Source: Campylobacter concisus (lineage in GTDB: Bacteria; Campylobacterota; Campylobacteria; Campylobacterales; Campylobacteraceae). From it: a stretch of 64,000 nucleotides of DNA. Positions 12,683 through 51,965 of the stretch are shown here, one piece after another (within the stretch, counting starts at the first letter, position 1; every line of letters starts with the position of its first letter). Under the pieces are notes generated by a model, which saw only the letters and a list, made by a program, of their open reading frames with translations, had not been told where the DNA came from and did not search any database. The stretch covers positions 186,001 to 250,000 of the forward strand of contig NZ_PPAW01000015.1 in the NCBI RefSeq assembly GCF_002913225.1. Reading direction: 5' to 3'. The translations under genes and the position numbers were made by a program.

Positions 12683-15600
12683 GAAATTCTCCTATTTGTC
12701 TTATCGCTTAGATCGTTAAAGTTATTTTCACCACCTACAACATTTCCCACGTCGCCTTTATCTGAGCCACTTTTTAGTGTTTTACCTGCCCAGTCACCAT
12801 TTGGCACGAGAAATCTCACATTAAAGTCGCTTGTCACTGCATTTTTATCAAATTCATTATATATTTGCCACTCTCTTGCATGCATTTTAACCACATCAGT
12901 GACTGCTTTTGGATTGCTTATAAAGATAGTTTGAACTCCGTCTTGGACAGCACTTACATTATTTCTTAAAATGGTTTCACTAATTTTATTTGTAAAACTA
13001 AAATCTGAAAAAGCAAGCATACTTGCTCTATAGCGTGGATTAACAAACCAAAAAGGAGCCGATGGAAATTCTTGCCATGTCTCTCCAGTTGTTTGGTCTT
13101 TCATATATTCATTTTTGTCACACCCATTGCAATAAGCTCCATAGTAAATTTTCGCTATAAATCCTAGATACGAACCCTCATAATATGGAGCATAGACCCT
13201 GCCATAGTAAAGTTTAGCAGATGTTTTTTCGCTAGGGCTTGGTTTTGTATATGGCGCACTGCCTAATTTTCCATCGCTTATGCTTTTAAATCCAAAGTCA
13301 TCACTTGAGACTGTGAAAGGATTTTTCGCAAGATTTACCTTTCTAGCAAAGTTAAAATAAACCTCAGCAGTCGCTTTACCATCTTTAAACGCACTCTTAT
13401 CAACATAGAACATTCCTTTTGTCGCAGTTGGCCCAATGCTCTTTATTGTCCTTGAAAAAGGTACCTGAAAGAATAAAATTTCATCATTTGCTTTTTCAAG
13501 CGTGCCAGCATTTCCATCATTATCTGTGTAGTTTAATGGCACTTGATCAAGCCCTATATCAAAACTAGTGACATTAGCATAGCATCCGTCTTTATAAAAA
13601 GTTGCAGTGTCGCGGTTAAATAGCCTTGCTACAACGTCAAAAGTCACTTTCACCTTTTGATGATAACTACTATCGATATAGGTAACACTATCGCTTGGTA
13701 TTATTTTTAGATTACTTATCTCAAGATCTTCTGGCTTAAATTGAAATAAAATATTATTTCCTTGTCTTATCGCCATATCGCAACCAACCCTACCTTCGTT
13801 GTCTGGGTCTTTACTAGGGTCATTCTCGCTTGAGTCTCTCACGCAGTCATCTGCTCTTGGACTTACATGCTTATCGTTTCTAGTATAGCTTGTATCTTTT
13901 ATCTCAAAGTATGCATTACCTATATCAGAAAACGAAAATGGTTCTTCAGCCCCAGAAGAATTTAATCTAAAAATATTACCGATGGCTTTATTCTCTTTAT
14001 CAAAAACAACTTTTAGTCTATTGTCGCTCACTAACCCTGAAGCATCACAACCGACTAAATTCATAGGATGAAGACCGGCAACTTCATTTGAATTGCTTAT
14101 GCCATCTATCGTATTTATATACCCTTTTGCTATTACGTCATCACTTGTTAAAGCAGCGAGCTTGTAGTTTGTATATGATTTTCCACCTACAAGGTCGAGA
14201 TTTTTTCTTACAACAGCATTTAAATCTGTGTCATATACAGCAAAATAACTAGGTCTAACAGCAAAGTCATCTAAATTTTCGCACGCTACGATCTTGGTCT
14301 GTGTCGCAGGAGTGACTTGTGAGGCTCTGGTATGTGAAATTCTAAATTTAAGGCTCTTATATGCCTTATCTACCTTGATGCCCTCTAGTAAGACCTCGCT
14401 TTTTTCATTAAATTTTACATCATCTTTTTTATATAGATTTTTATCTTCGCCTACATATAAACTTGTATCATCATCACAAGATTTAACTAACTCTACCTTT
14501 ACATCTCCAACCAAAGAATTTGGCTCTTTTTTGCTACCGTCTTCTCCGTAGTTTGTTATATATACATTAAAAGGCTTTCCTATTATTTGAGTAAGAAGTC
14601 TATTTTTATTCTTTCCGCTTCCATCGTCTTGATTAGTGCTTGGCACAAAGTCATTAGGCTCATCGTCTTCCATTTTTATATTATAAGAGTAAGGATCGCA
14701 TTTTTTTATATACGTGTCATAAGGCTTTAATTGTATAGTGCTATTTTCGATTGTAGCTTTGTAGCTATTTTCTGCAAATTTAGAATCAAGTTTCGTATCA
14801 AAAACCATATAAGAAAAATTGCTAAAATTTGCATTTAGAGAGCCACCTTCGCCTGTAACTGCATTTGCACCATGTCCGACAAAAAATGTTAAAACATTAT
14901 TACTCGCCCTTTGTAAGCCAGTATTATCACTAATGATCCTCCCATAATATGGATCACTCTCAGAAAAAGAAGAATTTGCAGTAATCTTTATCGCTGCTGA
15001 TGAGTTTTCAACATATGTCTGACTTGGATCTATTTTTACTTTTAAAGCAATATTTTGAGCCAACTCATTTGTAGGATTAGTTAGCTTTAAGATAGTTCTT
15101 AAAGTAGTGCCTTTTGGCAAATTTGTGCTGATAGATGAGTTTTTTACCAGTGGTGTAAAGCTTGCTTCATTTGGCTTTTTATAGCTAATATCTTCCATAT
15201 AACATAAACTTGGTCTATACACGCGAGTAGAAAAAGCCACAAGAGCTAAATTTATAGGCTCACTATTTACTCCACCATAGTTATTTTCGGCAACTGTAAA
15301 TTTCATATTAACTTTTCTTAGTTCCGGATACATAAAATTTGATACATTAAAGACATCTAGGTCTAGCTGATTATTATAAATTCTCTCAGGGTTCATCAGT
15401 TTGTCAAATTTTGTAAAAGACGAGTTAAATTGATTATTTATCGGGCTTTTTACATTATATACCGTATCGCTATTGCCATTATTATCAAAAGGCAAATACG
15501 GTTTTTGTATCTGTATCTTTTCTCCATCTACTTCACGCTTAGAACCAAGGGCAAAAACTGTCAGTGATGCATCCATGTTTCCACTTCTTGGCATATAAAT

Positions 15601-37568: not shown

Positions 37569-38231
37569 TTAAGCTCTCTCTAAAATTTCCTTTCGCTTTT
37601 GCCAGTCAGGCATATAAAGCGCTAGATAGTCATAAAATTTCTTTGAGTGATCAGGATAGAGAAGATGCACTAGCTCGTGAAATACAACATACTCGATACA
37701 CGCTCTTGGCTTTTTGATAAGCTCTATGTTTAAATTTATATATGATTTATAAGGATTGCAACTCCCCCCCCCACCTCGTCTTCATCTACCTTATTTTTAC
37801 GCTTTTAATGTCTTGTTTTACTATCTTGTTAAACTCTTGCAAGATATTAAAAAAACAGAGCATCGCCTTTTCGTGATACCACTCATAGATCAATTTTTCT
37901 TTTCGCTCTAAGTCGTTTTTATCTTTTACAAATAGCTCAAGATAACCTCTTTGTAGCTTTACGCACTCATATTTTGACTGCACCACTTTTAGCCTATAAC
38001 TTCGCCCAAGATATCTAAAATCCTTGCCGCTTACGTATTCTTTTTGTGGCGTCTTAAACGAGGCAAAAAAAGCACGCTTTTGCGCTATCCATTTGGCTCT
38101 TTTTTTATAATAAATTTTATATGCTCATCGCTTGCCGTTTTTGGCGCGGTTAGGATAGCTTCGCCATTTGGTCTAACTTTTAAGGTAATGTTTTTCACCT
38201 CTTTTTTGATGATTTTCACCTCATTTGACAT
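37569..38231 (-). pseudogene. YgjP-like (DUF45/M48-type) zinc metallopeptidase gene, decayed, with a G9 tract
   Basis: Joining frames gives a full YgjP-type protein: MSNEVKIIKKEVKNITLKV at the start, the family RWGSC motif, and FHELVHLLYPDHS (HExxH) with MPDWQKRK near the end. Three lesions are visible on the coding strand: a run of seven As (complement of 38100-38106) that needs eight, an in-frame TAG shortly before the RWGSC codons, and a run of nine Gs (complement of 37764-37772) that needs 5, 8 or 11. Genes of this family often follow hsdR. The G-run is of the kind that switches phase in Campylobacter, but the other lesions suggest the gene is dead. Confidence 0.75.
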
Positions 38232-41200
38232 AGAAGCTTATCCCTATTCCACGGATAGTTTGGTAAATTTTCTCCTTCTTGTCGATTAATACGCCGTATT
38301 CATCCTCTACCTCCCAAAGAGCGTCCTCCATAGCGCTTGTTATCTCGTTTTCTACATCTTTATTTTTGTGCCATTCTGGTTTTTTGGAGGCTTTTTCATA
38401 AATTTCATAAAAATTTAGGCTCAAATTTTTAGCTACCTCCTCTATATCCGCAAGCCCCACATCGCCTAAAATATCAAGCAAATTATCATAAATAGCAAAT
38501 AAAATTTTCTTACCATTAAATTCTTTTGGATACCTGTCTTCGCTCGGCTTTAAAGCGCCCGTTATTAGGTCTTTTAGCAGTTTTGCTTTGGCAAGCTTTT
38601 CTTCCTCGCCTAGCCTTTTTGCCTTGTATTCGTCGATGATGTCTTGTATCTGCTGCGCTATTGATTTATAAAACGCTGGGTTTGAGTCCATTTTCTCTTT
38701 TACTACCGCGCTTACGGCACTGATGATCGTATCAGCCTTTGCGTTTTTGCCCTCAACTCTTTGCACCTCATCGTCAAATTCTGTCTCAAAGATATTTACA
38801 AGCCTCGTAAGCTCATTGACCCCTTGTGCATTTACGTAAATATCGAGCAGCTTTTGCATCTGCGCTTCGTATTTGCCAAAGTCGCAAGCCTCGTGATACC
38901 TTAGTTGCACCGCTTTTCTTAGCTCGTTATAAAATTTAACCCTTTGTTTATAAGCTTTGATCTCCTCTTCGTTTAATATGTCATAAATTTTCTCGCTAGA
39001 AAGCGATAGTTTAAACGCCCTAGCAAACTGTGATAGCCACTCTTTAAAGTCGTCTCTTTTTTGCGCGTCTTCTAAAACCGCCACGTAGCTTTCCAGATCA
39101 TCTTTAAATTTCACACCGCTAAAAAGATCGTCTAAATGAGTATAGTAGGTCTTTGCCTTTACGATCTCACTTCTTACGTCTATTACGACTCCAGTTATAT
39201 CTTCTGGGTCAAAACCGCTTAGCGAAGCATAGCTAGTAAGCGCCTGATCAAGCTCGCCAAGAAGCCCTCTATAATCAATAATGTAGCCATAATCTTTTCC
39301 GTCATAAAGCCTATTTACTTTAGCTATGGCTTGGAGTAAATTATGCTCTTTTAGCTGTTTATCTATATAAAGTGTGCTTGCTCTTGGCGCGTCAAATCCC
39401 GTTAAAAGCTTATCCACGACGATAAGCAAATCTATCTCGTCGCCATAAACAAATTCATCCTTCACATGCTTTAGATAAGCTTCCTCGCTACCGTAGCCCC
39501 TTATAGTATCTTGCCACTCCTTTGCGACATACTCTTTATGCCCACCATCTAGCTCCTCATGCTCGTTGCTTGATATCACATAGGCACTTTTTATCTCTCC
39601 AAATTCCTCAAATATCTTATGATATTTTATGGCGTCGTATTTTCTTTGCGTTGCTAACATCGCCTTAAAACCGCCATTTGTCATCTTTAGCGTCTTTTTA
39701 AAATGCTCATTTATATCCACAGCTATTAGCTCTAGCCTTTGTTCGCTTGATGCCACACGCTCAAACCTCGCCCATTTTTGCTGCAAGTCCCTCTTAGCCT
39801 CATCGCCAAGCTCTCTTGATATGAGATCAAATTTCCTAGTTAGCCCCTCAGGGTCTAGCACCTCTTGACCCACATATCGCCCTTCATAAAGTAGCGGCAG
39901 CACAGCTCCGTCTTTTACCGCATCATCTATCGTATATCTATGAATTTCTCCGCCAAATTTAGCAAAGCTATTTTTCTCACGCTTTAAAAGCGGCGTACCC
40001 GTAAATCCTATATAACAAGCAAGAGGCAACGCCTTTTTCATAGCCTTATGCAGATCGCCGCCTTGCGTGCGGTGGCTCTCATCCACTAGCACAAATATAT
40101 CACCGTCCCTTATCACTACCTTTTGATTTTTCACTTTTTCAAATTTATGCACGAGCGTAGTTATCACGCTGACGCCGCTTTGTAGCTTTTCTATTAGATC
40201 GCTTCCGCTACTTGCTCGTCCTGCTTTTACATCCGTGTTTTCAAAGGTTTCGTGTATCTGCCCATCTAGATCTATCCTATCAGTTACTAAGATAATCTTT
40301 GAGCTTATATAAATTTGCTTTAAAAGCTTCGTTAGCATCACCATCGTGAGCGACTTACCGCTTCCTTGCGTATGCCAGATGAGTCCGCCTGCTCTTGCTC
40401 CGTCTTTTTTCGCCGATACCCTCTTTAGCGTCTCTTCGATAGCGAAGAACTGCTGATAGCGGCAAACCTTTTTCATTTTCTTATCAAACACTATATAGTG
40501 CCTAACTAGCCTTAGCAGCCTATCTTTAGATAGTAGCGCAAAGAGCGTCATATCAAGCGTGCTCACCTCTCTACCATTTATCAAGCTCTTTAAGCTCTCT
40601 TTTGCTTTAGCTTCGTCCTGCTCTTTCCACACGCTATAAAATTTAAACGGCGTTCCAGTAGTGCCATATCTTGCCCCACTTCCGTTTGCCGCGATAGTTA
40701 GCTGGACGTATTTAAAAAGGTGCGCTATCTCATCTTTGCCCTGTTCTTTTTCGAGCTGTTTTATGCCGTTTTCAAAGCTCACGCTTGATTTTTTAAGTTC
40801 TATCACGACTATAGGTATGCCGTTTATAAAAAGCACGAGATCAGGCCTTCTGTGCTTTTGCACTTCGCCTTGATTTGCCCTGCTTACTTCAAATTCTTCC
40901 GTTACGTAAAAGTCGTTGTTTTGTAAATTTTCAAAGTCTATAAATTTAAAAGAGAAACTCCTTCTCGTTCCGTCCTCTAAATTTTCCTCGATACTAGTGC
41001 CAAGCAACAGCAAATTTGTGATCTTTTCATTTGCGACCATTAGCCCTTCGTTTAGTGAAACCCCCGCCAGCTCATCGACTGCTTTTAATATACTGCTTTG
41101 GCTAAATTTATATCGTTTGCCCTTATACTCGTAGCCGTTTATCTCGCCAAGCTTTTTGATCAAAATTTCCCTAAACAAAACCTCGCTAGACTTGCCGCCG

Positions 41201-41304
41201 CGAAGCTTTAAATTTTCTTCTCTGCTTATAAATTTATAGCCTAAATTTCGTAGTAAATTTATGCTGTTTTGCTGGATTTTGTATTCTGAAGTATCGGGGG
41301 TCAT
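38221..41304 (-). CDS. hsdR: Type I restriction enzyme, R subunit
   Basis: 1027 residues. The N-terminal PD-(D/E)XK nuclease shows HRRPDLVLF (Asp155) and VIELKK (Glu169, Lys171). The SF2 motor has Walker A GSGKS (314-318) and VDESH (407-411), with helicase motifs through about residue 700 (LLTGFDAPRASTLYID). The C-terminal part is helical and binds HsdM. It translocates and cuts unmodified DNA. It is coupled to the 309-aa gene upstream (4-nt overlap) and overlaps the YgjP-like pseudogene by 11 nt. The subunit looks intact, so it depends on a working S subunit. Confidence 0.97.
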   Translation of the reverse strand: MTPDTSEYKIQQNSINLLRNLGYKFISREENLKLRGGKSSEVLFREILIKKLGEINGYEYKGKRYKFSQSSILKAVDELAGVSLNEGLMVANEKITNLLLLGTSIEENLEDGTRRSFSFKFIDFENLQNNDFYVTEEFEVSRANQGEVQKHRRPDLVLFINGIPIVVIELKKSSVSFENGIKQLEKEQGKDEIAHLFKYVQLTIAANGSGARYGTTGTPFKFYSVWKEQDEAKAKESLKSLINGREVSTLDMTLFALLSKDRLLRLVRHYIVFDKKMKKVCRYQQFFAIEETLKRVSAKKDGARAGGLIWHTQGSGKSLTMVMLTKLLKQIYISSKIILVTDRIDLDGQIHETFENTDVKAGRASSGSDLIEKLQSGVSVITTLVHKFEKVKNQKVVIRDGDIFVLVDESHRTQGGDLHKAMKKALPLACYIGFTGTPLLKREKNSFAKFGGEIHRYTIDDAVKDGAVLPLLYEGRYVGQEVLDPEGLTRKFDLISRELGDEAKRDLQQKWARFERVASSEQRLELIAVDINEHFKKTLKMTNGGFKAMLATQRKYDAIKYHKIFEEFGEIKSAYVISSNEHEELDGGHKEYVAKEWQDTIRGYGSEEAYLKHVKDEFVYGDEIDLLIVVDKLLTGFDAPRASTLYIDKQLKEHNLLQAIAKVNRLYDGKDYGYIIDYRGLLGELDQALTSYASLSGFDPEDITGVVIDVRSEIVKAKTYYTHLDDLFSGVKFKDDLESYVAVLEDAQKRDDFKEWLSQFARAFKLSLSSEKIYDILNEEEIKAYKQRVKFYNELRKAVQLRYHEACDFGKYEAQMQKLLDIYVNAQGVNELTRLVNIFETEFDDEVQRVEGKNAKADTIISAVSAVVKEKMDSNPAFYKSIAQQIQDIIDEYKAKRLGEEEKLAKAKLLKDLITGALKPSEDRYPKEFNGKKILFAIYDNLLDILGDVGLADIEEVAKNLSLNFYEIYEKASKKPEWHKNKDVENEITSAMEDALWEVEDEYGVLIDKKEKIYQTIRGIGISFYVK

Positions 41305-42230
41305 TTTGTCTCCTCATCCTCAAGATCAGAAAATAGGTTTTTGCCTTTAAAACTATCTTTGAATTTATTCTTTTGTTTTTTTATTCCCTTATTAGTAGCT
41401 ACCCAGTTATTTAAAATATCTCGTTTTGTTTCATAAACTTTAGCGACCCTATAAGATCTATTTTTGCACTCATTTCCAAATTCATCGTATGTTTTTGTTA
41501 TACATAATTGACAATTGATAAATGACCCATTGCCAAAATCATACCTTCCGCCTATAATATCGTTTTTAAATTTGCTATCTCCCATACTAAAATCTATACT
41601 TTCATTTCTATAAATTCCACGCCATTTATGCCTACCTTCTTTTAAAACAGGCGATATTAATTCTATGTTTGCATCATCATCTATTTCCTCTTCTTTATCG
41701 TCAACCAATATAAAATCTCTAAATTCATCCCTTTGAACTACATATTCGTTATTTACTTCATTTCCAAATCCAACTGCTCGTATTTTTTCGTATTTTTCTA
41801 TTTTTGCATAGTAATTTGAAATCGGTCTTGCCAGTTTTTGCTCCAATTGATTGTCATCTATTCCCGCAGACTCTTTTTTAAGCTTTAAAATTTCTAATTC
41901 TAATTTTTCATTTTCAAGCTTATTCTTTTTATATGCGCCAGTTAAGAGATATTCTAAAAATCTTTTAATGGCATATCCGGCCGACGATACTATAATTGTT
42001 GATGAAACAGAATGTGCCTCTATTATGTCCAAAATTTCAATAAACCCACCCTCTTTTGCAGCTCGGCTTTCTAATTCAATTTTTAAGTTCAATGAAGAGC
42101 TAATTGTATTAACAATGCTTAGAAAATCTTTTTCCATGGCGTTTCTTACAAAAGTATTCATAGAATGTGAATTATCACCCAAATAGTAATGAATTATAAA
42201 TTGACTTTCAAATTTTTCTTGCCCTTTCAC
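41301..42230 (-). CDS. Unknown protein embedded between hsdS and hsdR (R-linked ORF)
   Basis: 309 residues, not recognised. It has a hydrophobic stretch at about 75-95 (STIIVSSAGYAIKRFLEYLL), then a Lys/Glu-rich coiled coil (NKLENEKLELEILKLKKE), then a probably folded C-terminal part with KWRGIYRNESIDFSMGDSKF and Cys residues, and a basic tail. Both its ends overlap hsdS and hsdR by 4 nt, so it is a designed member of the operon. Campylobacter type I loci are known to carry such intervening R-linked ORFs. Its role (accessory defence, anti-restriction control) is unknown. Confidence 0.7.
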   Translation of the reverse strand: MKGQEKFESQFIIHYYLGDNSHSMNTFVRNAMEKDFLSIVNTISSSLNLKIELESRAAKEGGFIEILDIIEAHSVSSTIIVSSAGYAIKRFLEYLLTGAYKKNKLENEKLELEILKLKKESAGIDDNQLEQKLARPISNYYAKIEKYEKIRAVGFGNEVNNEYVVQRDEFRDFILVDDKEEEIDDDANIELISPVLKEGRHKWRGIYRNESIDFSMGDSKFKNDIIGGRYDFGNGSFINCQLCITKTYDEFGNECKNRSYRVAKVYETKRDILNNWVATNKGIKKQKNKFKDSFKGKNLFSDLEDEETK

Positions 42231-43434
42231 GTCCTCACCTTTCCGCTTAGTAGCTTTTGCATCAAGCCTTGTTTTTGTTTTTTCAAATTTTCAAGCTTTA
42301 AATTTAGTAAATTTATCTCATCATCACTAGCCGTTAAAACCTCTGCGATTTTTTGTTGTTCTTTTAAATTTGGGAGTTTTATTTTAAAGTTTTTTACTAT
42401 CTCGGCATTTAAATTTCCTTGTGCTCCAGTTTCTACAAAAGAGCAAACATTTTTTTGAAAATCATCAAGAAAATAATATAAATACTCCAAAGCAACCTTA
42501 GATAAATTTGGAACGATACACATCATTGCTTGACTTGTAGCAACCTCTATTTTATTAATAGAAACAAAACCAAATGAAGCATACATTGAATAAATTAAAC
42601 TATTTTTAGGAACAAGCCAAGCCGAAGAATTTTCTAAACCTTCTTCTGTGATTTTTGTCTGCGTGTCATAAATATACTTACCCGCAAGCGTCATATCGTT
42701 TATTTTTACAAAAGGAATATTGCCATTATAAAATTTTTTATTAGTTGACTTTGGTGTTCCACCGGAACGCATTTTAATGCAAATGTCTTTAAGTTTTGTT
42801 TCTCGCCACTCGTCTTTGAACTCAGGAAAGCGAACTTTTGCTATGAGTAAATTTTGCATAAGGGCTTTTTTAAACTGCTTTTTGTTTTCTATCAAATTTA
42901 TAGTTAAATTTATAGCCTCATCCCAAGTAGATAAAATTTCCGCTATCTTTTTTGCTCGTCTAATGGCGGAAGTAAAATTTTCAAAGAAAAAAAAGCATTA
43001 TCTGTTATATTTATCCTATCGTGCCTAGCACCGTAGTTTGCTACACTTTTGATTTTATTTTGCCATATAATCGTTTTAAAAAAGTATGCTAAGAATTTTG
43101 CTAATGTCTCATCTTGCACACTAAAAACCGTATACAATGGATACACTATGCCTTTAGACAACATATTTCTATTTATCGGTCCAGTAGGTGCATTCTGAGA
43201 TATTCTTGGATTGTAAACAAAATCTCCAATATCAACTACATAATAATCTTGTATATTTTCTTTATTTGCTATATCTTTGTCAAAATATTCATTTTGTGCA
43301 ATCAATCCATCAATGGCAGAATTTGACAAAACTAACTTAATCAAACTATTTCTATTTTTAAGAATAGATTTTTCAGCTATTTCCCCAAGCTTCATAACCT
43401 TCCATCCACTAGGCAAATTTTTGAATTCGCTCAT
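42227..43434 (-). pseudogene. hsdS: Type I restriction specificity subunit HsdS, split by a 1-nt frameshift
   Basis: The first part (163 codons, 43434-42943) has a target-recognition domain and ends at LLPPLDEQKR. The second part continues in another frame as IAEILSTWDEAINLTINLI and then a second recognition domain starting DEWRETKLKDI and ending QKLLSGKVRT. One extra A in the six-A run (complement of 42948-42953) would restore a 402-residue two-domain HsdS. As read, the enzyme would lose its second half-site unless the fragments pair or slippage occurs. The start overlaps hsdM by 4 nt. It may be a phase-variable switch. Confidence 0.85.
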
Positions 43435-44921
43435 AGCCCAAGCTCCGCAAGATACTCGCTCATCTTGCTTTGAACGCTTTTTAGCTCGGCTTCTAGGCGT
43501 GAAATCTCAGCCTTTGTAGCCTCGATATCCACAGCCTCTTCTTCTTCAAAAGTATCGACGTAGCGAGGGATGTTTAGGTTGTAATCATTCTCTTTTATCT
43601 CGCTAAGGCTTGCTAGATGGGAGTATTTTTCTATCTCACTTCTATTTTTATAGGTAGTGACTATCTTTTTTATATTTTGCTCGGTTAGCGAGTTTTGGTT
43701 TTTGCCTTTTTCAAATTCTTTGCTAGCGTTGATAAATAGCACGTCTTCGTTTACGCGGTTTTTCTTAAAAACGAGTATGCAAGCAGGGATGCTCGTGCCG
43801 TAAAATAAATTTTCCGGTAGTCCGATAACAGCATCAAGCAAATTTTCCTCGATCAGCTTTTGGCGTATCTTGCCCTCGCTAGATCCACGAAATAGCACGC
43901 CATGCGGAAGCACGACGCCCATTTTACCGTTACTACCTAGGCTTTTTATCATATGCACGACAAATGCGTAGTCGCCCTTGCTCTTTGGCGGCAAAGCGTA
44001 GCTAGTAAATCTCATAAAAGGATCGTTTAAGGCAAAATCAGCGCCCCATTTATCTAGGCTAAAAGGGGGATTTGCCACGACTATATCAAATGTTTTGATA
44101 AGGTTATCTTGTAGATGGAGCGGGTTTCTGATCGTATCGCCCCACTCGATGACGGCGTCGTTTATCTCGTGCAAGAACATATTCATCTTGCAAAGTGCGT
44201 GAGTTTGTCCGTTTTTCTCCTGTCCGTAAAGGCGGAAATTTTTGCTGCCGATCTCTTTTGAAGCCTTGATAAGAAGCGAGCCAGAGCCACAAGTAGGATC
44301 ATAGATCATATCACCTTCTTTTGGCTCAACCAGCTTTGCAAGAAGCGTCGAAACCTCGCTTGGCGTATAAAACTCTCCGCCTTTTTTGCCAGCGTCACTT
44401 GCAAAATGAGCTATAAGATACTCGTATGCGTCGCCGATTATGTCGTTACCCTCAAGCATAGACGGGCGAAGGTCTAGTCTAGCGTCGCTAAAATCCTCTA
44501 GTAAATTTTGTAAGATAGCGTTTCTCTCTTTTGTGTCGCCAAGCTTGTTTTTGTTATTAAAGTCGATGCTTCTAAAGATGCCTTCAAGCTTATCTTTGTT
44601 GTCTTCTTCGATCTTTTCTAGCGCTTTGTTCATTATCTCGCCTAAATTTGCAGCCTCTTTGTGCGCTAAAAGATACTCAAAGGTGCAACTCTCATCAAGC
44701 TTAAATTTCTCTTTCTTTAGCTTTGCTTCGATCCTCTCGCGCTTCTCGCCGTACTCGGCTCTTAGTTGCTCAAGCTTTTCTTTGTAAAAATCAGATAGAT
44801 ACTTAACAAAAAGCATCGTTAAAACATAGTCTTTATAGTCGCTTCCATCCATCGTGCCGCGAAATGTGTCGCAAGCCTTCCAAACTACGTTGTTTATGGT
44901 ATCTTGTGTGGTCTTTTGCAT
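43431..44921 (-). CDS. hsdM: Type I restriction-modification DNA methyltransferase, M subunit
   Basis: 496 residues. The N-terminal helical domain is followed by the N6-adenine methyltransferase core with SAM motif DPTCGSGSLL (208-217) and catalytic NPPF (284-287). It methylates the sequence chosen by HsdS and forms the M2S core. A coiled-coil at the C-terminus (KAEISRLEAELKSVQSKMSE) should contact S. It starts 1 nt after the single-domain HsdS gene and is coupled to full hsdS. Confidence 0.97.
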   Translation of the reverse strand: MQKTTQDTINNVVWKACDTFRGTMDGSDYKDYVLTMLFVKYLSDFYKEKLEQLRAEYGEKRERIEAKLKKEKFKLDESCTFEYLLAHKEAANLGEIMNKALEKIEEDNKDKLEGIFRSIDFNNKNKLGDTKERNAILQNLLEDFSDARLDLRPSMLEGNDIIGDAYEYLIAHFASDAGKKGGEFYTPSEVSTLLAKLVEPKEGDMIYDPTCGSGSLLIKASKEIGSKNFRLYGQEKNGQTHALCKMNMFLHEINDAVIEWGDTIRNPLHLQDNLIKTFDIVVANPPFSLDKWGADFALNDPFMRFTSYALPPKSKGDYAFVVHMIKSLGSNGKMGVVLPHGVLFRGSSEGKIRQKLIEENLLDAVIGLPENLFYGTSIPACILVFKKNRVNEDVLFINASKEFEKGKNQNSLTEQNIKKIVTTYKNRSEIEKYSHLASLSEIKENDYNLNIPRYVDTFEEEEAVDIEATKAEISRLEAELKSVQSKMSEYLAELGL

Positions 44922-44922
44922 C

Positions 44923-45510
44923 TTAGTTCTCCTCTTTTTTTATCAAATTTTCAAATATGCTTTTGTGGTATTTTTGCTTTACAGCTATCAAATTTTGTAA
45001 AATTTCGCTCTCTTGGCGGGCTAAATTTAGGTATTTTACTATCTTGTTTTGAGTTTGCAAATTTATGGCTGGTATTTTTATATTATTTAAGCTTGCAACG
45101 CCTATCATCGCTATAGCAGTGCCTGAAACATCTGGCGCAAGGGCTCTTTTAACGGCGCTGCTATTTAGATAATGCGCCACAAAATGCGGATCAAATTTAT
45201 CGCTACTAACCCTTATACGCACCATCAAAGACGTGTAGACGAGGTCGCTATACTCTTTGTCTATATAAACGGCGAAATTCGGCTCTCTAAGTCGCAGCAA
45301 GATATCGCCCTGACTTACTTTATACTCCTCGTTTATCTGCTCGCTAGATATAAATTCGTCCACAAAAGCGTCATCGTAATACGCATCTTCTGTAAACGAC
45401 TTTAGCGATACGATTTTATACGAGTGCTCGGACGGACTATGTGCCTCAGCCTTTTTCCTACTTAACACTAAGCCGGTTTTTATCTCGGCTATTTTGTTTA
45501 AATTTATCAT
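44923..45510 (-). CDS. Single-domain (half) HsdS-like specificity protein
   Basis: 195 residues: one target-recognition domain (KIAEIKTGLVLSRKKAE start, GDILLRLREPNFAVYID, DPHFVAHYLNSSAVKRALA) and one C-terminal helical conserved region (QTQNKIVKYLNLARQESEI). Full HsdS has two of each. It is the first gene of the operon, just before hsdM. Half-S proteins can act as dimers reading a palindromic site, so the locus may have two specificities: this intact one and the broken hsdS. Its promoter and operators are right upstream. Confidence 0.8.
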   Translation of the reverse strand: MINLNKIAEIKTGLVLSRKKAEAHSPSEHSYKIVSLKSFTEDAYYDDAFVDEFISSEQINEEYKVSQGDILLRLREPNFAVYIDKEYSDLVYTSLMVRIRVSSDKFDPHFVAHYLNSSAVKRALAPDVSGTAIAMIGVASLNNIKIPAINLQTQNKIVKYLNLARQESEILQNLIAVKQKYHKSIFENLIKKEEN

Positions 45511-45526
45511 TTTAGAGCCTTTTTAT

Positions 45527-45547
45527 GTATTATTTTCCAAATAATAC
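45527..45547. promoter_or_regulatory. 21-bp palindrome (operator) at the type I operon start site
   Basis: Perfect 9-bp arms GTATTATTT / AAATAATAC around a 3-nt centre. It lies directly downstream of the -10 box, covering about +1 to +21 and ending 17 nt before the first start codon, a classic repressor position. Confidence 0.7.
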
Positions 45548-45554
45548 TAGGCGA

Positions 45555-45583
45555 AGTATATCAGGTAAGATGGAAAATGTCAA
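45555..45583 (-). promoter_or_regulatory. Strong sigma70 promoter of the type I operon
   Basis: On the minus strand TTGACA (45578-45583) is followed after exactly 17 nt by TATACT (45555-45560). A full -35 box is unusual in Campylobacter, where promoters rely on the -10 region. Palindromes lie on both sides. Confidence 0.75.
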
Positions 45584-45592
45584 TAGATTTTT

Positions 45593-45613
45593 ATACTATT
45601 TCATAAATAATAC
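45593..45613. promoter_or_regulatory. Second, imperfect copy of the 21-bp palindrome
   Basis: GTATTATTT on the minus strand, 3-nt spacer, then an arm matching 7 of 9 positions. Its centre is 66 bp from the first copy, on the other side of the promoter, so the pair could allow cooperative binding or looping. Confidence 0.55.
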
Positions 45614-45983
45614 AAAAAAATTACTACTTTTTGCAAAATAAATATCCAAAGAGATCACATAGTGTTTTTTTAAAATCCTAATTTTAGTAATTCTCATATG
45701 CTCTTAAAAAGTTTGGAGAAAGCATTTTAAATCTACTTTTATTTTTTAATCCTCAAAACTTCTCTACCATAGCCAAATACTTTACAAGCTTAACTTTAAT
45801 CTTTGATATATTACTTTTTATAAGATAAATTCACTATCTGATACCACCTCGTTAACTTAAATAGACACTTTTTAATCGCTAGTGGAATTTGAAGTCGTCG
45901 CAACACCAATTGCATTCTTATTTAAATTGAAGTGAATTAAATAAGTTAGTTCAATGTCCAATTCGTAAATTTATATGGCATCG
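45614..45983. other. AT-rich gap between the type I operon and the Kiwa-like pair
   Basis: No open frame of note and no recognisable RNA or mobile element. Several short inverted AT-rich stretches only. The region probably contains the 3' end signal of the Kiwa-like operon. Confidence 0.4.
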
Positions 45984-46979
45984 CTATTCTTGGATACTAT
46001 CTGCACTATTATTTTCCAAATTATCTTTTGCAACACTTTCATAGTGAAATTGCGTAAGTTCAGATGTTAAGAAATTATCCATTAATAAACTTATAAAACA
46101 GTCTTTTGATGCTTTTGTATCTAAAATAATTTTAGTGCCCTCAGTATTAAATTTTATTTTTCCAGCTATCGATGTATACGTTCTGCAGAAATTTATGATG
46201 TTTTGATTTGGGATATTAGCTTTGATTACTGGAGAGTTTTTAGCTATTTTTATAAATTTTCTAGCATACCTTAAATTTTCAATCAACTCTATTAAAACCT
46301 CTATATTATCAACAATTGACATTGCTTTGATGGCATTAAGGCCAATAGTGGCTTCTTTTTTTATAATTTTATCAAAACCGAAATTTTTTTCTATCACATT
46401 TACATCCATTACAATTAAATTATTTGATATTTTTATAAGTTGAAATTGCGAAGTTATTCTGAGTAAATCTTCATCTATTTTCCTTAGCCGAGTTGGGTGT
46501 TCTCCAAATTCTTTTCCTAAAAAAACATATTTTGGAGAACTTTTAAATACATTTATAGGAGTCATGGTCTTGTATAAAATAGTCTGTTTTTCATTGTTAC
46601 CTATCTCAACTAGTAAAGCCTTAATTGATGACATTCGCAACTCCTCAATATTCATAAGTTCGACATCATCACTATTTAAAATTGTATCAATATGCAATAA
46701 ATCTTCAGGAATCTCATCTATGTCATACAAATAAATTGCATTTGTTCTCTCATCGCAAGTGGATAAATTTAATAAAAACAACTCATCTTGTTTCATAATT
46801 AAATTTTCTATACTATTCAAAAACATATTTTTTAAAGACCCAGAAGCTTCATCTTCTATATTGATTTTGAATAGATTGTTATTGTTTGTAGTGTTTAAAA
46901 GAGCATATATAGATATCCCAATACCTTTTTGATTATCATAAAAATATTGAAGCTCTTCTCTTAGGTCTTGAATGTTCAT
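45984..46979 (-). CDS. kwaB: KwaB-like anti-phage protein (DUF4868)
   Basis: 331 residues. The middle holds the DUF4868-like stretch LRKIDEDLLRITSQFQLIKI, then NLIVMDVNVIEKNFGFDKII, which is the family's 'second strand then phenylalanine-rich helix' pattern. KwaB binds DNA and, together with membrane protein KwaA, forms the Kiwa system that reacts to phage attack at the membrane. Length (about 315 in E. coli) fits. The start overlaps the KwaA-like stop by 4 nt. Identification is from memory of the family and gene pairing. Confidence 0.68.
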   Translation of the reverse strand: MNIQDLREELQYFYDNQKGIGISIYALLNTTNNNNLFKINIEDEASGSLKNMFLNSIENLIMKQDELFLLNLSTCDERTNAIYLYDIDEIPEDLLHIDTILNSDDVELMNIEELRMSSIKALLVEIGNNEKQTILYKTMTPINVFKSSPKYVFLGKEFGEHPTRLRKIDEDLLRITSQFQLIKISNNLIVMDVNVIEKNFGFDKIIKKEATIGLNAIKAMSIVDNIEVLIELIENLRYARKFIKIAKNSPVIKANIPNQNIINFCRTYTSIAGKIKFNTEGTKIILDTKASKDCFISLLMDNFLTSELTQFHYESVAKDNLENNSADSIQE

Positions 46980-47560
46980 AAACTATTTCCTTTTACATAG
47001 TAAATTCTATTATCTAGTTTTATATATGAAACTTTCTGTCCAGGAGTTAGTTTTTCCCTACTAATCAAAATAATACCGATTCTATCTCCATTTTTAAAAT
47101 TTCCATCTGCTTTATAAATTTGAAAACCAAGAAGTGCAAGAGATGGATTTGCATAGAAAAGATCCGTTTTTATATAAATAGCACCAATTGCTATAAGCAA
47201 TAAAAATAAGATAACTATTTGCCTTGTTTTATTAAAATCGAAGCTTATCAAAGGCACAACATATGTTGTCAAAAAAGTTAAATGTTCATAGTTTATGCTT
47301 TCTATTTTTCTGATCTCAAAAGGAATTTGTGTTGCTCCCTTTAAACTATCTTGAAAATTTTTATATGAACAATAACTATAAATCAACATACAAAAGCAAA
47401 TAATGCTTAAAAAATTTATCTTTATAAAAACAAACCAACTATCTAAGTTTTTAAAATCAAAATTGTCGCATGGAATACTAGCCGTTGCCACTATCATAAA
47501 AACAAATAGCAGCGATAAAGATATAATGTATAAATTGATTTTTTTAATATTATTTACCAT
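46976..47560 (-). CDS. kwaA: KwaA-like membrane protein
   Basis: 194 residues with about four hydrophobic helices: IISLSLLFVFMIVATASIP, INFLSIICFCMLIYSY, LTFLTTYVVPLISF and QIVILFLLLIAIGAIYI. A cytosolic or periplasmic tail follows with NPSLALLGFQIYKADG and a ~40-residue β part. Size, topology and coupling to a DUF4868 protein match KwaA, the membrane sensor of Kiwa. First gene of the pair, with AGGTAAGAATAAA before the ATG. Confidence 0.66.
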   Translation of the reverse strand: MVNNIKKINLYIISLSLLFVFMIVATASIPCDNFDFKNLDSWFVFIKINFLSIICFCMLIYSYCSYKNFQDSLKGATQIPFEIRKIESINYEHLTFLTTYVVPLISFDFNKTRQIVILFLLLIAIGAIYIKTDLFYANPSLALLGFQIYKADGNFKNGDRIGIILISREKLTPGQKVSYIKLDNRIYYVKGNSL

Positions 47561-49924: not shown

Positions 49925-49955
49925 GGGTTAGGAGATAAAGCTTCTCCTAAAACCC
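49925..49955. terminator. Bidirectional terminator between DUF1643 and AAA+ genes
   Basis: Inverted repeat GGGTTAGGAGA / TCTCCTAAAACCC (one bulge) lying between the two convergent genes and covering the AAA+ stop codon. Confidence 0.6.
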
Positions 49956-51965
49956 TATCTTCGCACTCTTTTCTTCATTTTTTAGTGCGACTTCAAGCTC
50001 AAGCCTTCGGTAAAAGTCGTCGCCATTTTTTATAGGCCTAAATTTAGCTTGTCTTCTCACGCTGGCAAAGTCTCCAGGCGCTAGCAAGCCTAGGTTTGAG
50101 ACCTTTTTGCTTGCGTTTTCGTCAAATTTGACTTTTAACAGCGCGCACTCTTTTTTAAATAAATTTTGCGCTTGCTCTGGCAGCAAGTATCCAAACTCAA
50201 GCTTTAGATCAAATCTTCTAAGACAGGCTTTATCAAGATTATCTATCAAATTTGTCGTGGCGATAAATATGCCATCAAAGCTCTCCATCTGCACTAGCAT
50301 CTCATTTACTTGAGTTACCTCCCAGCTTCTTGCAGCCATGCTTCTATCTTGCAAAAAACTATCAACTTCGTCAAAGACTAGCACAGCATGTTGATCTTTG
50401 GCTTCTTTGAAGGCTAGTGCTATATTTTTCTCAGTTTCTCCCAGATACATAGATAAAAGATCGCTTCCTTTTTTGATGATGATAGGCTTTTTTAGGCTTT
50501 TAGCGATAAATTTAGCGTAAGCGCTTTTGCCAGTTCCAGGCACACCGTAAAGGCATATCCTTGCGTTTTTGCTTTCTTTTATGCCTTGAATTAGCTCGGT
50601 TAGGTCGCAGTCTGAGTTTACAAAATTTGGATCATAGCTACTTGGCAGATCAACGCTTGGCTTCTCGTCTTTTTCTATCTCATCGTATCCTTGTGCTTTT
50701 AAAGTGTTGCTTATCACTCGCTCAAAGGCTTTGTTTTTATCTTTTGTGTTTAAATTTGAAACGACTAAGCTAGCGTTACTAACGACTGCTGGGGCTACAA
50801 ATTGATTTTTAGCTAGCTTTTTTACGAGTTTACTATCTATCAAATTTTCACTATATTTTTTTATGATCTTTGCTCTTACATCTTCAGTTGGTATGCCTAT
50901 CTCTATGGCTAGGTTAAACCTTCTAACTACGGCTTCATCCATATCAAGGATATTATTTGTTATCCAGATAGTTGGCACTTCGTTAGTCTCAAGAGATCTA
51001 TTTATAAAGGCTTTGCCATACTGCCTTTTCTCGTCATTATTTGTGTTAAATATATCTTCTGCTTCGTCATACATGAGCAAATTTGATCCAGTAGACAATA
51101 CGTTTTGTGCAAGGCAATATGACCTTAGCCTTCGATCCTCAGTCGCATATCCGTATTCGTCATCATAAGCTACTTCATAAAGCTTTAAATTTAGCTCACT
51201 GGCTATCACTTTACTAAGCTCAGTTTTACCAGTTCCTGCTGAGCCGTATAGAAGCACATTTACTCCTTTTTGCTTTTTGCGAATAGCATTTTTTAGAAAC
51301 GAGAGTAAAATTTTCACATCTTCTTTTATATGAGGATAGTTTTTTGTAGTTAAATTTGTCTTGCTACATGGCTTTATCGCACTTTCAAATATCTCGTCCA
51401 TGCTTTCACATTTAACAAACAAATCACACATAAAGTTATTATTTATGACATCGATTTTATATTTTAGGTTATGCACATTATTTTCTAGTTTTACAATCGA
51501 AGTCTTGGCAAAGATTCCATCTTTTCTAAAGGCTTTTTGAACATCGCTGAAACGTAAATTTAGTATCTTTGAGATGGCTTTTGTGGCTTGTATGTTGTTT
51601 AGATCTCCTAGTAAACTGCAAGCATTAGATATCACTTCGTAGTTGTACATGATCGCAACAAATCTCAAAATATCTCTCTCGGTACTATTTATACCTAAAT
51701 TTTCTTGAAGTAAATTTAGATTGTGTTCAAGATCTTTTAGTCCGCATGAAATTTGACTTTTTTCAATAATTTCAAATCTGTTTTTAAGATTTTGAATCTC
51801 TTCTTCTTTGGGCTCTTTTGACTCGATACCCAAAAAATCTAAAACATCGTCACATCCGCTTCTTAGTAACTCTTTTTCTCCTCCAAGATTAAAAATAGTA
51901 CGAAGTGTCCAAAGTGTCGTAAGCTCATATATCTCGCTATCTACGTAAAAAATCTCTTTTTCCAC
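49947..51965 (-). CDS. Tandem AAA+ ATPase
   Basis: 672 residues. A helical N-terminal domain (about 1-210) is followed by two AAA+ modules: Walker A GSAGTGKT (241-248) with Walker B LLMYDEAED (296-304), and Walker A GVPGTGKS (474-481) with Walker B VLVFDEVDS (528-536). Each ends with an RRF box (VVRRFNLAIEI; CLRRFDLKLEF). This is the Cdc48/FtsH-like core without a protease, so it probably remodels or unfolds a partner. The start is GTG with AAGGA upstream. The promoter carries the regional palindrome at 52014-52027. I recognise no named family. Confidence 0.8.
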   Translation of the reverse strand: MEKEIFYVDSEIYELTTLWTLRTIFNLGGEKELLRSGCDDVLDFLGIESKEPKEEEIQNLKNRFEIIEKSQISCGLKDLEHNLNLLQENLGINSTERDILRFVAIMYNYEVISNACSLLGDLNNIQATKAISKILNLRFSDVQKAFRKDGIFAKTSIVKLENNVHNLKYKIDVINNNFMCDLFVKCESMDEIFESAIKPCSKTNLTTKNYPHIKEDVKILLSFLKNAIRKKQKGVNVLLYGSAGTGKTELSKVIASELNLKLYEVAYDDEYGYATEDRRLRSYCLAQNVLSTGSNLLMYDEAEDIFNTNNDEKRQYGKAFINRSLETNEVPTIWITNNILDMDEAVVRRFNLAIEIGIPTEDVRAKIIKKYSENLIDSKLVKKLAKNQFVAPAVVSNASLVVSNLNTKDKNKAFERVISNTLKAQGYDEIEKDEKPSVDLPSSYDPNFVNSDCDLTELIQGIKESKNARICLYGVPGTGKSAYAKFIAKSLKKPIIIKKGSDLLSMYLGETEKNIALAFKEAKDQHAVLVFDEVDSFLQDRSMAARSWEVTQVNEMLVQMESFDGIFIATTNLIDNLDKACLRRFDLKLEFGYLLPEQAQNLFKKECALLKVKFDENASKKVSNLGLLAPGDFASVRRQAKFRPIKNGDDFYRRLELEVALKNEEKSAKIGF

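Follow-up and report, generated by a model that had tools for sequence, protein, structure and literature searches.

Upstream of a type I restriction operon in Campylobacter concisus, a promoter is placed between two copies of a palindromic site. This locus raises the question of whether the two sites are operators and, if so, which protein reads them. The operon is located within a 64-kb stretch of DNA, referred to below as the window. The promoter elements and the operon genes are the following:

45593..45613, minus strand: candidate upstream operator GTATTATTTATGAAATAGTAT (minus-strand reading), an imperfect dyad; from the sequence and relatives
45578..45583, minus strand: -35 hexamer TTGACA; from the sequence, with the spacer length kept in relatives
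45555..45560, minus strand: -10 hexamer TATACT, extended (TGN); from the sequence and relatives
45527..45547, minus strand: candidate downstream operator GTATTATTTGGAAAATAATAC, a perfect 9-N3-9 dyad at about +1 to +21; from the sequence and relatives
44923..45510, minus strand: half-S, a 195-aa HsdS-like protein with a single target-recognition domain (TRD), first operon gene and proposed autoregulator; Pfam Methylase_S and structure model
43431..44921, minus strand: HsdM, methyltransferase subunit; N6_Mtase, HsdM_N and TIGR00497
42943..43434, minus strand: HsdS, first part; Methylase_S
42227..42895, minus strand: HsdS, second part; Methylase_S
41301..42230, minus strand: cargo gene, PADLOC candidate defence protein PDC-S42; E 1.3e-82
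38221..41304, minus strand: HsdR, restriction subunit; HSDR_N and SWI2_SNF2

The promoter and its two palindromes

Read on the minus strand, GTATTATTTATGAAATAGTAT is followed by 9 bp, TTGACA, 17 bp, TATACT, 7 bp, and GTATTATTTGGAAAATAATAC (45527-45613). Then come a Shine-Dalgarno-like AAGG and the ATG of the half-S gene. The 17-bp spacer separates the -35 hexamer (45583-45578) from the extended -10 element, (TGA)TATACT (45560-45555). Judging from this promoter spacing, transcription would start near 45548. The palindrome at 45527-45547 consists of GTATTATTT-TCC-AAATAATAC with perfect arms, and the copy at 45593-45613 reads ATACTATTT-CAT-AAATAATAC, with two mismatches to the pattern. The two copies are 66 bp apart, start to start. 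Thus, all elements described in the initial annotation are present, and its coordinates for the promoter and both palindromes are correct. The near-consensus -35 that it stressed is unremarkable by itself: TTGACA occurs 36 times in the window, and related promoters accept TTGTTA or TTGCTA. NikR-like and Fur-like boxes were set aside as candidates because their spacing and sequence appear to differ from those of the sites.

The window contains one perfect 9-N3-9 dyad, versus 0.62 expected from window shuffles. Promoter-like sites scoring at least 11/12 number five, versus 1.95 ± 1.47 expected. In this AT-rich window, the palindrome alone or the promoter alone is therefore unremarkable and within chance. 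The pair is rarer under shuffling than either element singly: of 100 shuffles, 2 yielded as many as two palindrome matches with at most three mismatches anywhere in the window. With a half-site scoring matrix, for which Campylobacter sites served as the training set, the two-operator score of the window promoter was 40.3. Nowhere else in the 64 kb did the score exceed 17.8, and 188 regions upstream of other genes in the fetched loci reached at most 17.7.

Directly upstream, the same strand carries the Kiwa genes kwaB (45984-46979) and kwaA (46976-47560), which places the promoter inside a defence island. Farther away, positions 49947-51965 encode a protein of 672 aa that contains two regions of the AAA ATPase type and matches the PADLOC IetA models. 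Within the operon, the frame of hsdS is broken at a short A-tract near 42950, which results in two ORFs. In the relatives L105 and L107, hsdS is full length and about 89% identical to the first part in the window. Possible causes of the break are a sequencing error, phase variation, and a loss of recent date.

Paired sites in related operons

The close set comprised 20 distinct loci from the genera Campylobacter, Arcobacter, Sulfurimonas, and Sulfurospirillum, whose leading gene product shares at least 55% identity with the window half-S. In all 20, the -35/N17/-10 promoter has a copy of GTATTATT-N5-AATAATAC on either side, and for each of these loci none of 200 shuffles matched the pair. Besides the window, nine genomes of the same genus, including C. 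concisus UNSWCS, encode a half-S of 76-92% identity; all of them have the pair, with one copy at -99 to -116 relative to the ATG and the other at -35 to -39. The pair was also present in all loci of Arcobacter, Sulfurimonas, Sulfurospirillum, and unclassified Campylobacterota that a search of named genomes added, where the identity of half-S is 56-66%. The same paired sites thus recur at other Campylobacter type I loci, the place where the initial annotation had proposed to look for them.

In 20/20 close loci, the promoter spacer measures 17 bp and a gap of 7-11 bp separates the upstream site from the -35; the downstream site starts 7, 9, 12, or 18 bp past the -10. Both sites keep the left-arm bases GTATTA at 100%. 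Drift is seen in the right arm, most strongly at the upstream site, and the two sites are accordingly oriented as direct repeats. The close loci score 34-42 with the half-site matrix versus about 8 ± 4.4 for shuffles. The distance between the operators ranges across relatives from 64 to 73 bp, with 77 bp as a further value. Helical-phase looping was considered, since the 66 and 77 bp found in Campylobacter hinted at one added turn, but the 64-73 bp in other genera do not support it.

The order of genes in the relatives is half-S, HsdM, variable genes including a full HsdS, HsdR, and, usually, a YgjP-like metallopeptidase. Half-S immediately precedes HsdM in every half-S operon examined within the HsdM clade (at least 65% identity); in the more distant L115 operon, an extra gene is inserted between them. 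Counterparts of the PDC-S42 cargo gene were found in only two other fetched operons. Elsewhere, the hsdM-hsdR interval is filled by other genes, such as those for RhuM-like, Bro-N, and HAD-like proteins. Since the flanking genes differ between loci, the operators move together with the operon.

Conservation across species establishes that the sites are real. Chance formation of AT-rich palindromes near a promoter, for which the expectation of 0.62 perfect dyads per shuffled window might speak, is refuted by their retention in 20/20 loci across several families, with 0/200 shuffles each; its probability is negligible. It is also very improbable that the downstream palindrome acts as a 5' mRNA hairpin, controlling stability or translation, with the upstream copy being incidental. 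The transcript would indeed open with a hairpin whose stem is 9 bp long (-5.3 kcal/mol, z about -2.4), but this hairpin is weak, its inner pairs are broken in downstream copies of the Arcobacter type, and the upstream copy is equally conserved although it lies outside the transcript.

A survey of 150 related genomes revealed side-by-side near-exact pairs (at most one mismatch) only at half-S operons. The other sites with at most one mismatch were isolated singles, occurring at approximately the frequency of a reversed control pattern. This confinement of the pairs makes a host regulon unlikely and supports the sites as putative operators of the type I operon. A transcription factor of the host, encoded elsewhere, could still be the binder: the 21-bp site with its N3 centre resembles the site of a classical dimeric repressor, and half-S has no classical DNA-binding regulator domain. 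No second genomic target above the control level was found in the 150 genomes, however, and in several families the sites occur solely where this operon does and drift together with half-S. We consider such a host factor quite unlikely. The initial annotation had left the choice between an operon protein and a host factor; the confinement of the pairs to these operons favours the former and disfavours the latter.

More diverged loci were examined for the fate of the sites. Half-S proteins of 37-40% identity are accompanied by drifted paired sites (L124, L125, and L150, the last found only once the motif had been framed). The drifted pair is GTATTATTTTATAAATAAAAC and GTATTATTTTGCTGTAAAAC in L125, and TGTACTATTATTATAATAATACA and TGTATTATTTCTATAATAAAACA in the related L150. 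Shuffles support the drifted pairs of L123, L124, L125, and L128. A sequence-free paired-dyad test supports those of L124, L125, and L150; for the majority of the distant loci, this test had too little power and gave no significant result. At 43-48% identity, other repeats were read by eye and are suggestive, as are the drifted sites assigned by eye in L046, L122, L126-L128, and L021 (a CTTAGNTAAG-like pair). In L021, a distant half-S operon, a differing pair, GTCCCTTAGTTAAG and CTTAGCTAAGGGAC, surrounds the TTGACA; it possibly represents a new operator specificity. No pair was found in the distant half-S loci L020, L129, L133, and L134. Across these loci, the putative operator sequence drifts with the divergence of half-S.

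The operator pair was absent from nine type I loci in which HsdM is not immediately preceded by half-S (best score 11.4 versus 34-42 in the close set). One locus, L114 of genome G136, carries before hsdM an ORF of 109 aa (14840-15169, minus strand), which combines a stretch resembling the HsdM N-terminus with the terminal helix of half-S and has no recognition domain. Operators were looked for at this locus and none were found. As a single case, this is suggestive only.

Half-S as the candidate operator-binding protein

The initial annotation was correct in calling for a regulator at this promoter, but saw no controller gene nearby. A candidate is present directly downstream, namely the half-S gene with its conserved TRD. 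Half-S matches Methylase_S at 30.6 bits (cut-off 22). Its structure model (pLDDT 86.3) comprises one recognition domain and one 44-residue helix (151-194). The nearest solved folds are Esub1 (Z 18.7), PacII S (16.2), BsaXI S (14.9), and MjaXI S (1yf2; 14.3); this likeness to HsdS is a match of predicted fold and not proof of function. No helix-turn-helix was detected in half-S; Pfam gives Methylase_S only, and the NCBIfam matches are specificity-subunit models. At the same time, half-S differs from a canonical type I specificity subunit in having one TRD, not two, and in that this TRD is not hypervariable.

Ten operons of the C. concisus group were compared. Mean identity reaches 95.6% for HsdM and 95.0% for HsdR; half-S follows with 85.3%, and the full HsdS with 48.7%. 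In the latter, the helices are conserved, and only a third to half of the columns in the recognition domains are in majority agreement. Half-S is conserved along its entire length, which, in comparison with the hypervariable full HsdS, suggests that it reads one fixed DNA target.

The window has no YgjP-like gene after hsdR and most operons lack PDC-S42, so the products common to these operons are half-S, HsdM, HsdS, and HsdR. For the same reasons, the metallopeptidase and the PDC-S42 protein were rejected as binders. The full HsdS was rejected since its recognition domains are hypervariable and the operator is constant. HsdM and HsdR of type I enzymes do not select sequence by themselves (PMC3874165). 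A fixed operator needs a fixed reader, and half-S is the sole operon protein with a fixed recognition domain; it is therefore the putative reader. Since half-S and HsdM diverge together, comparison does not fully separate the two.

Half-S could instead be an alternative specificity subunit, which together with HsdM methylates a symmetric target that includes the operators, so that methylation sets promoter activity. Its HsdS fold and its constant position next to HsdM agree with this, and half-S homodimers are known to yield palindromic methylation targets (PMC3874165). The adenine at position 6 and the symmetric T at position 16 are also strongly conserved, with 9 bp between them, which is a spacing of the EcoAI kind. 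This explanation is nevertheless unlikely: the surroundings of one promoter are essentially the only place in the genome where the sites occur, whereas methylation targets are scattered, and specificity subunits normally diversify while half-S does not. The half-sites of type I systems are usually 3-5 bp long. The conserved half-site of the operators is about 8 bp, which exceeds the usual methylation target and also counts against half-S as the binder.

On balance, we favour, with moderate confidence, the reading that half-S is the repressor of its own operon and binds the two operators, probably in the form of a homodimer. The protein corresponds to one TRD of HsdS plus a single dimerisation helix. 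Half-size S proteins form homodimers that recognise interrupted palindromes (PMC3874165), and the symmetry of the operators is consistent with a half-S dimer reading an inverted repeat. Most likely, two inverted domains of a homodimer would read this repeat, either alone or with HsdM. A dimer at the downstream operator would cover the transcription start, or the -10 in some relatives, and block RNA polymerase. In L123-L125, L127, and L150 the downstream site, read by eye, overlaps the -10, which fits repression. A dimer at the upstream operator, about 9 bp above the -35, may reinforce repression or modulate polymerase. The operon, from half-S through HsdM and HsdS to HsdR, would thereby be under negative autoregulation, with the restriction system kept low and self-limiting. 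What the comparisons show directly is a conserved operator pair, tightly linked to half-S, a conserved recognition domain in half-S, and the lack of such pairs elsewhere in the 150 genomes. Binding by half-S, its dimerisation and repression, and any role that it may have during establishment in a new cell, such as the delayed expression suggested by the initial annotation, are inferred.

The S and M subunits of EcoKI are reported not to bind DNA alone (PMC3874165), so half-S may need HsdM. If binding occurred only with HsdM, operator occupancy would, speculatively, report the completed methyltransferase and provide direct feedback on the enzyme level. In a wider sense, the evidence tips slightly towards a stand-alone half-S family, widespread in Campylobacterota, in which a restriction TRD would have become the autorepressor, acting in a sequence-specific manner, of type I operons whose operators co-evolve with the TRD. 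If true, a specificity module would have been reused as a transcription factor, derived from the kind of gene that sets the targets of the enzyme. This would explain the extra half-size S gene ahead of hsdM in these operons. From the natural TRD/operator pairs, it would also be possible to decipher how type I recognition domains read DNA, without recourse to methylation data.

Comparison with known regulators of restriction operons

The restraint of type I systems is generally attributed to post-translational control, for example ClpXP degradation of HsdR. To our knowledge, few transcriptional controllers of type I systems have been described. No report of an autoregulator of the half-S or HsdS type was found in a search of the open-access literature.

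Dimers of single-domain S proteins that recognise interrupted palindromes, as proposed here, are known from the homodimeric half-S forms EcoR124I delta-50 and EcoDXXI delta-C and delta-N (PMC3874165). These are truncation products that provide methylation and restriction specificity, and not natural operator-linked genes. Esub1 (PDB 8vsq and 8vsr; co-crystal with Prx) is the nearest solved fold over nearly the whole half-S model and is also half-size, but shares only 15% identity with half-S; no paper on Esub1 was found in the open-access literature.

Autogenous control of restriction operons from paired promoter sites is characteristic of the C proteins of type II systems, and a C-like protein is located upstream of the type I hsd locus of Mycoplasma gallisepticum (PMC12707154). 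C proteins are helix-turn-helix proteins, whereas half-S has no match to such a domain. Their sites are arranged side by side, while those proposed for half-S flank the promoter.

RptR (RMS-proximal transcriptional regulator) was described from an EPEC island with a type I RM system and DarTG2, and demonstrates that a type I operon can be repressed by the product of its own first gene (PMC12255303). Like the half-S gene, rptR is the first gene of the operon. RptR represses its own promoter via repeated palindromic sites near the -10, as proposed for half-S, and its type I operon is functional only with two or more such sites, which is comparable to the paired operators described here. The RptR island ends with a predicted metallopeptidase, as half-S operons usually do with the YgjP-like protein. 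RptR, however, is a 9-kDa helical homodimer acting on the 6-bp palindrome TAGCTA, and repeats of this palindrome are absent from the promoter region 45511-45620. Half-S has a 195-aa HsdS-type target-recognition fold, unrelated to that of RptR, and its proposed sites are 21-bp dyads. The first gene of the window operon, encoding a 195-aa Methylase_S protein, thus falls outside the RptR family, which is defined by a first gene for a helical protein of about 9 kDa. RptR and the C proteins are functional analogues, built on other folds, of the proposed half-S regulator.
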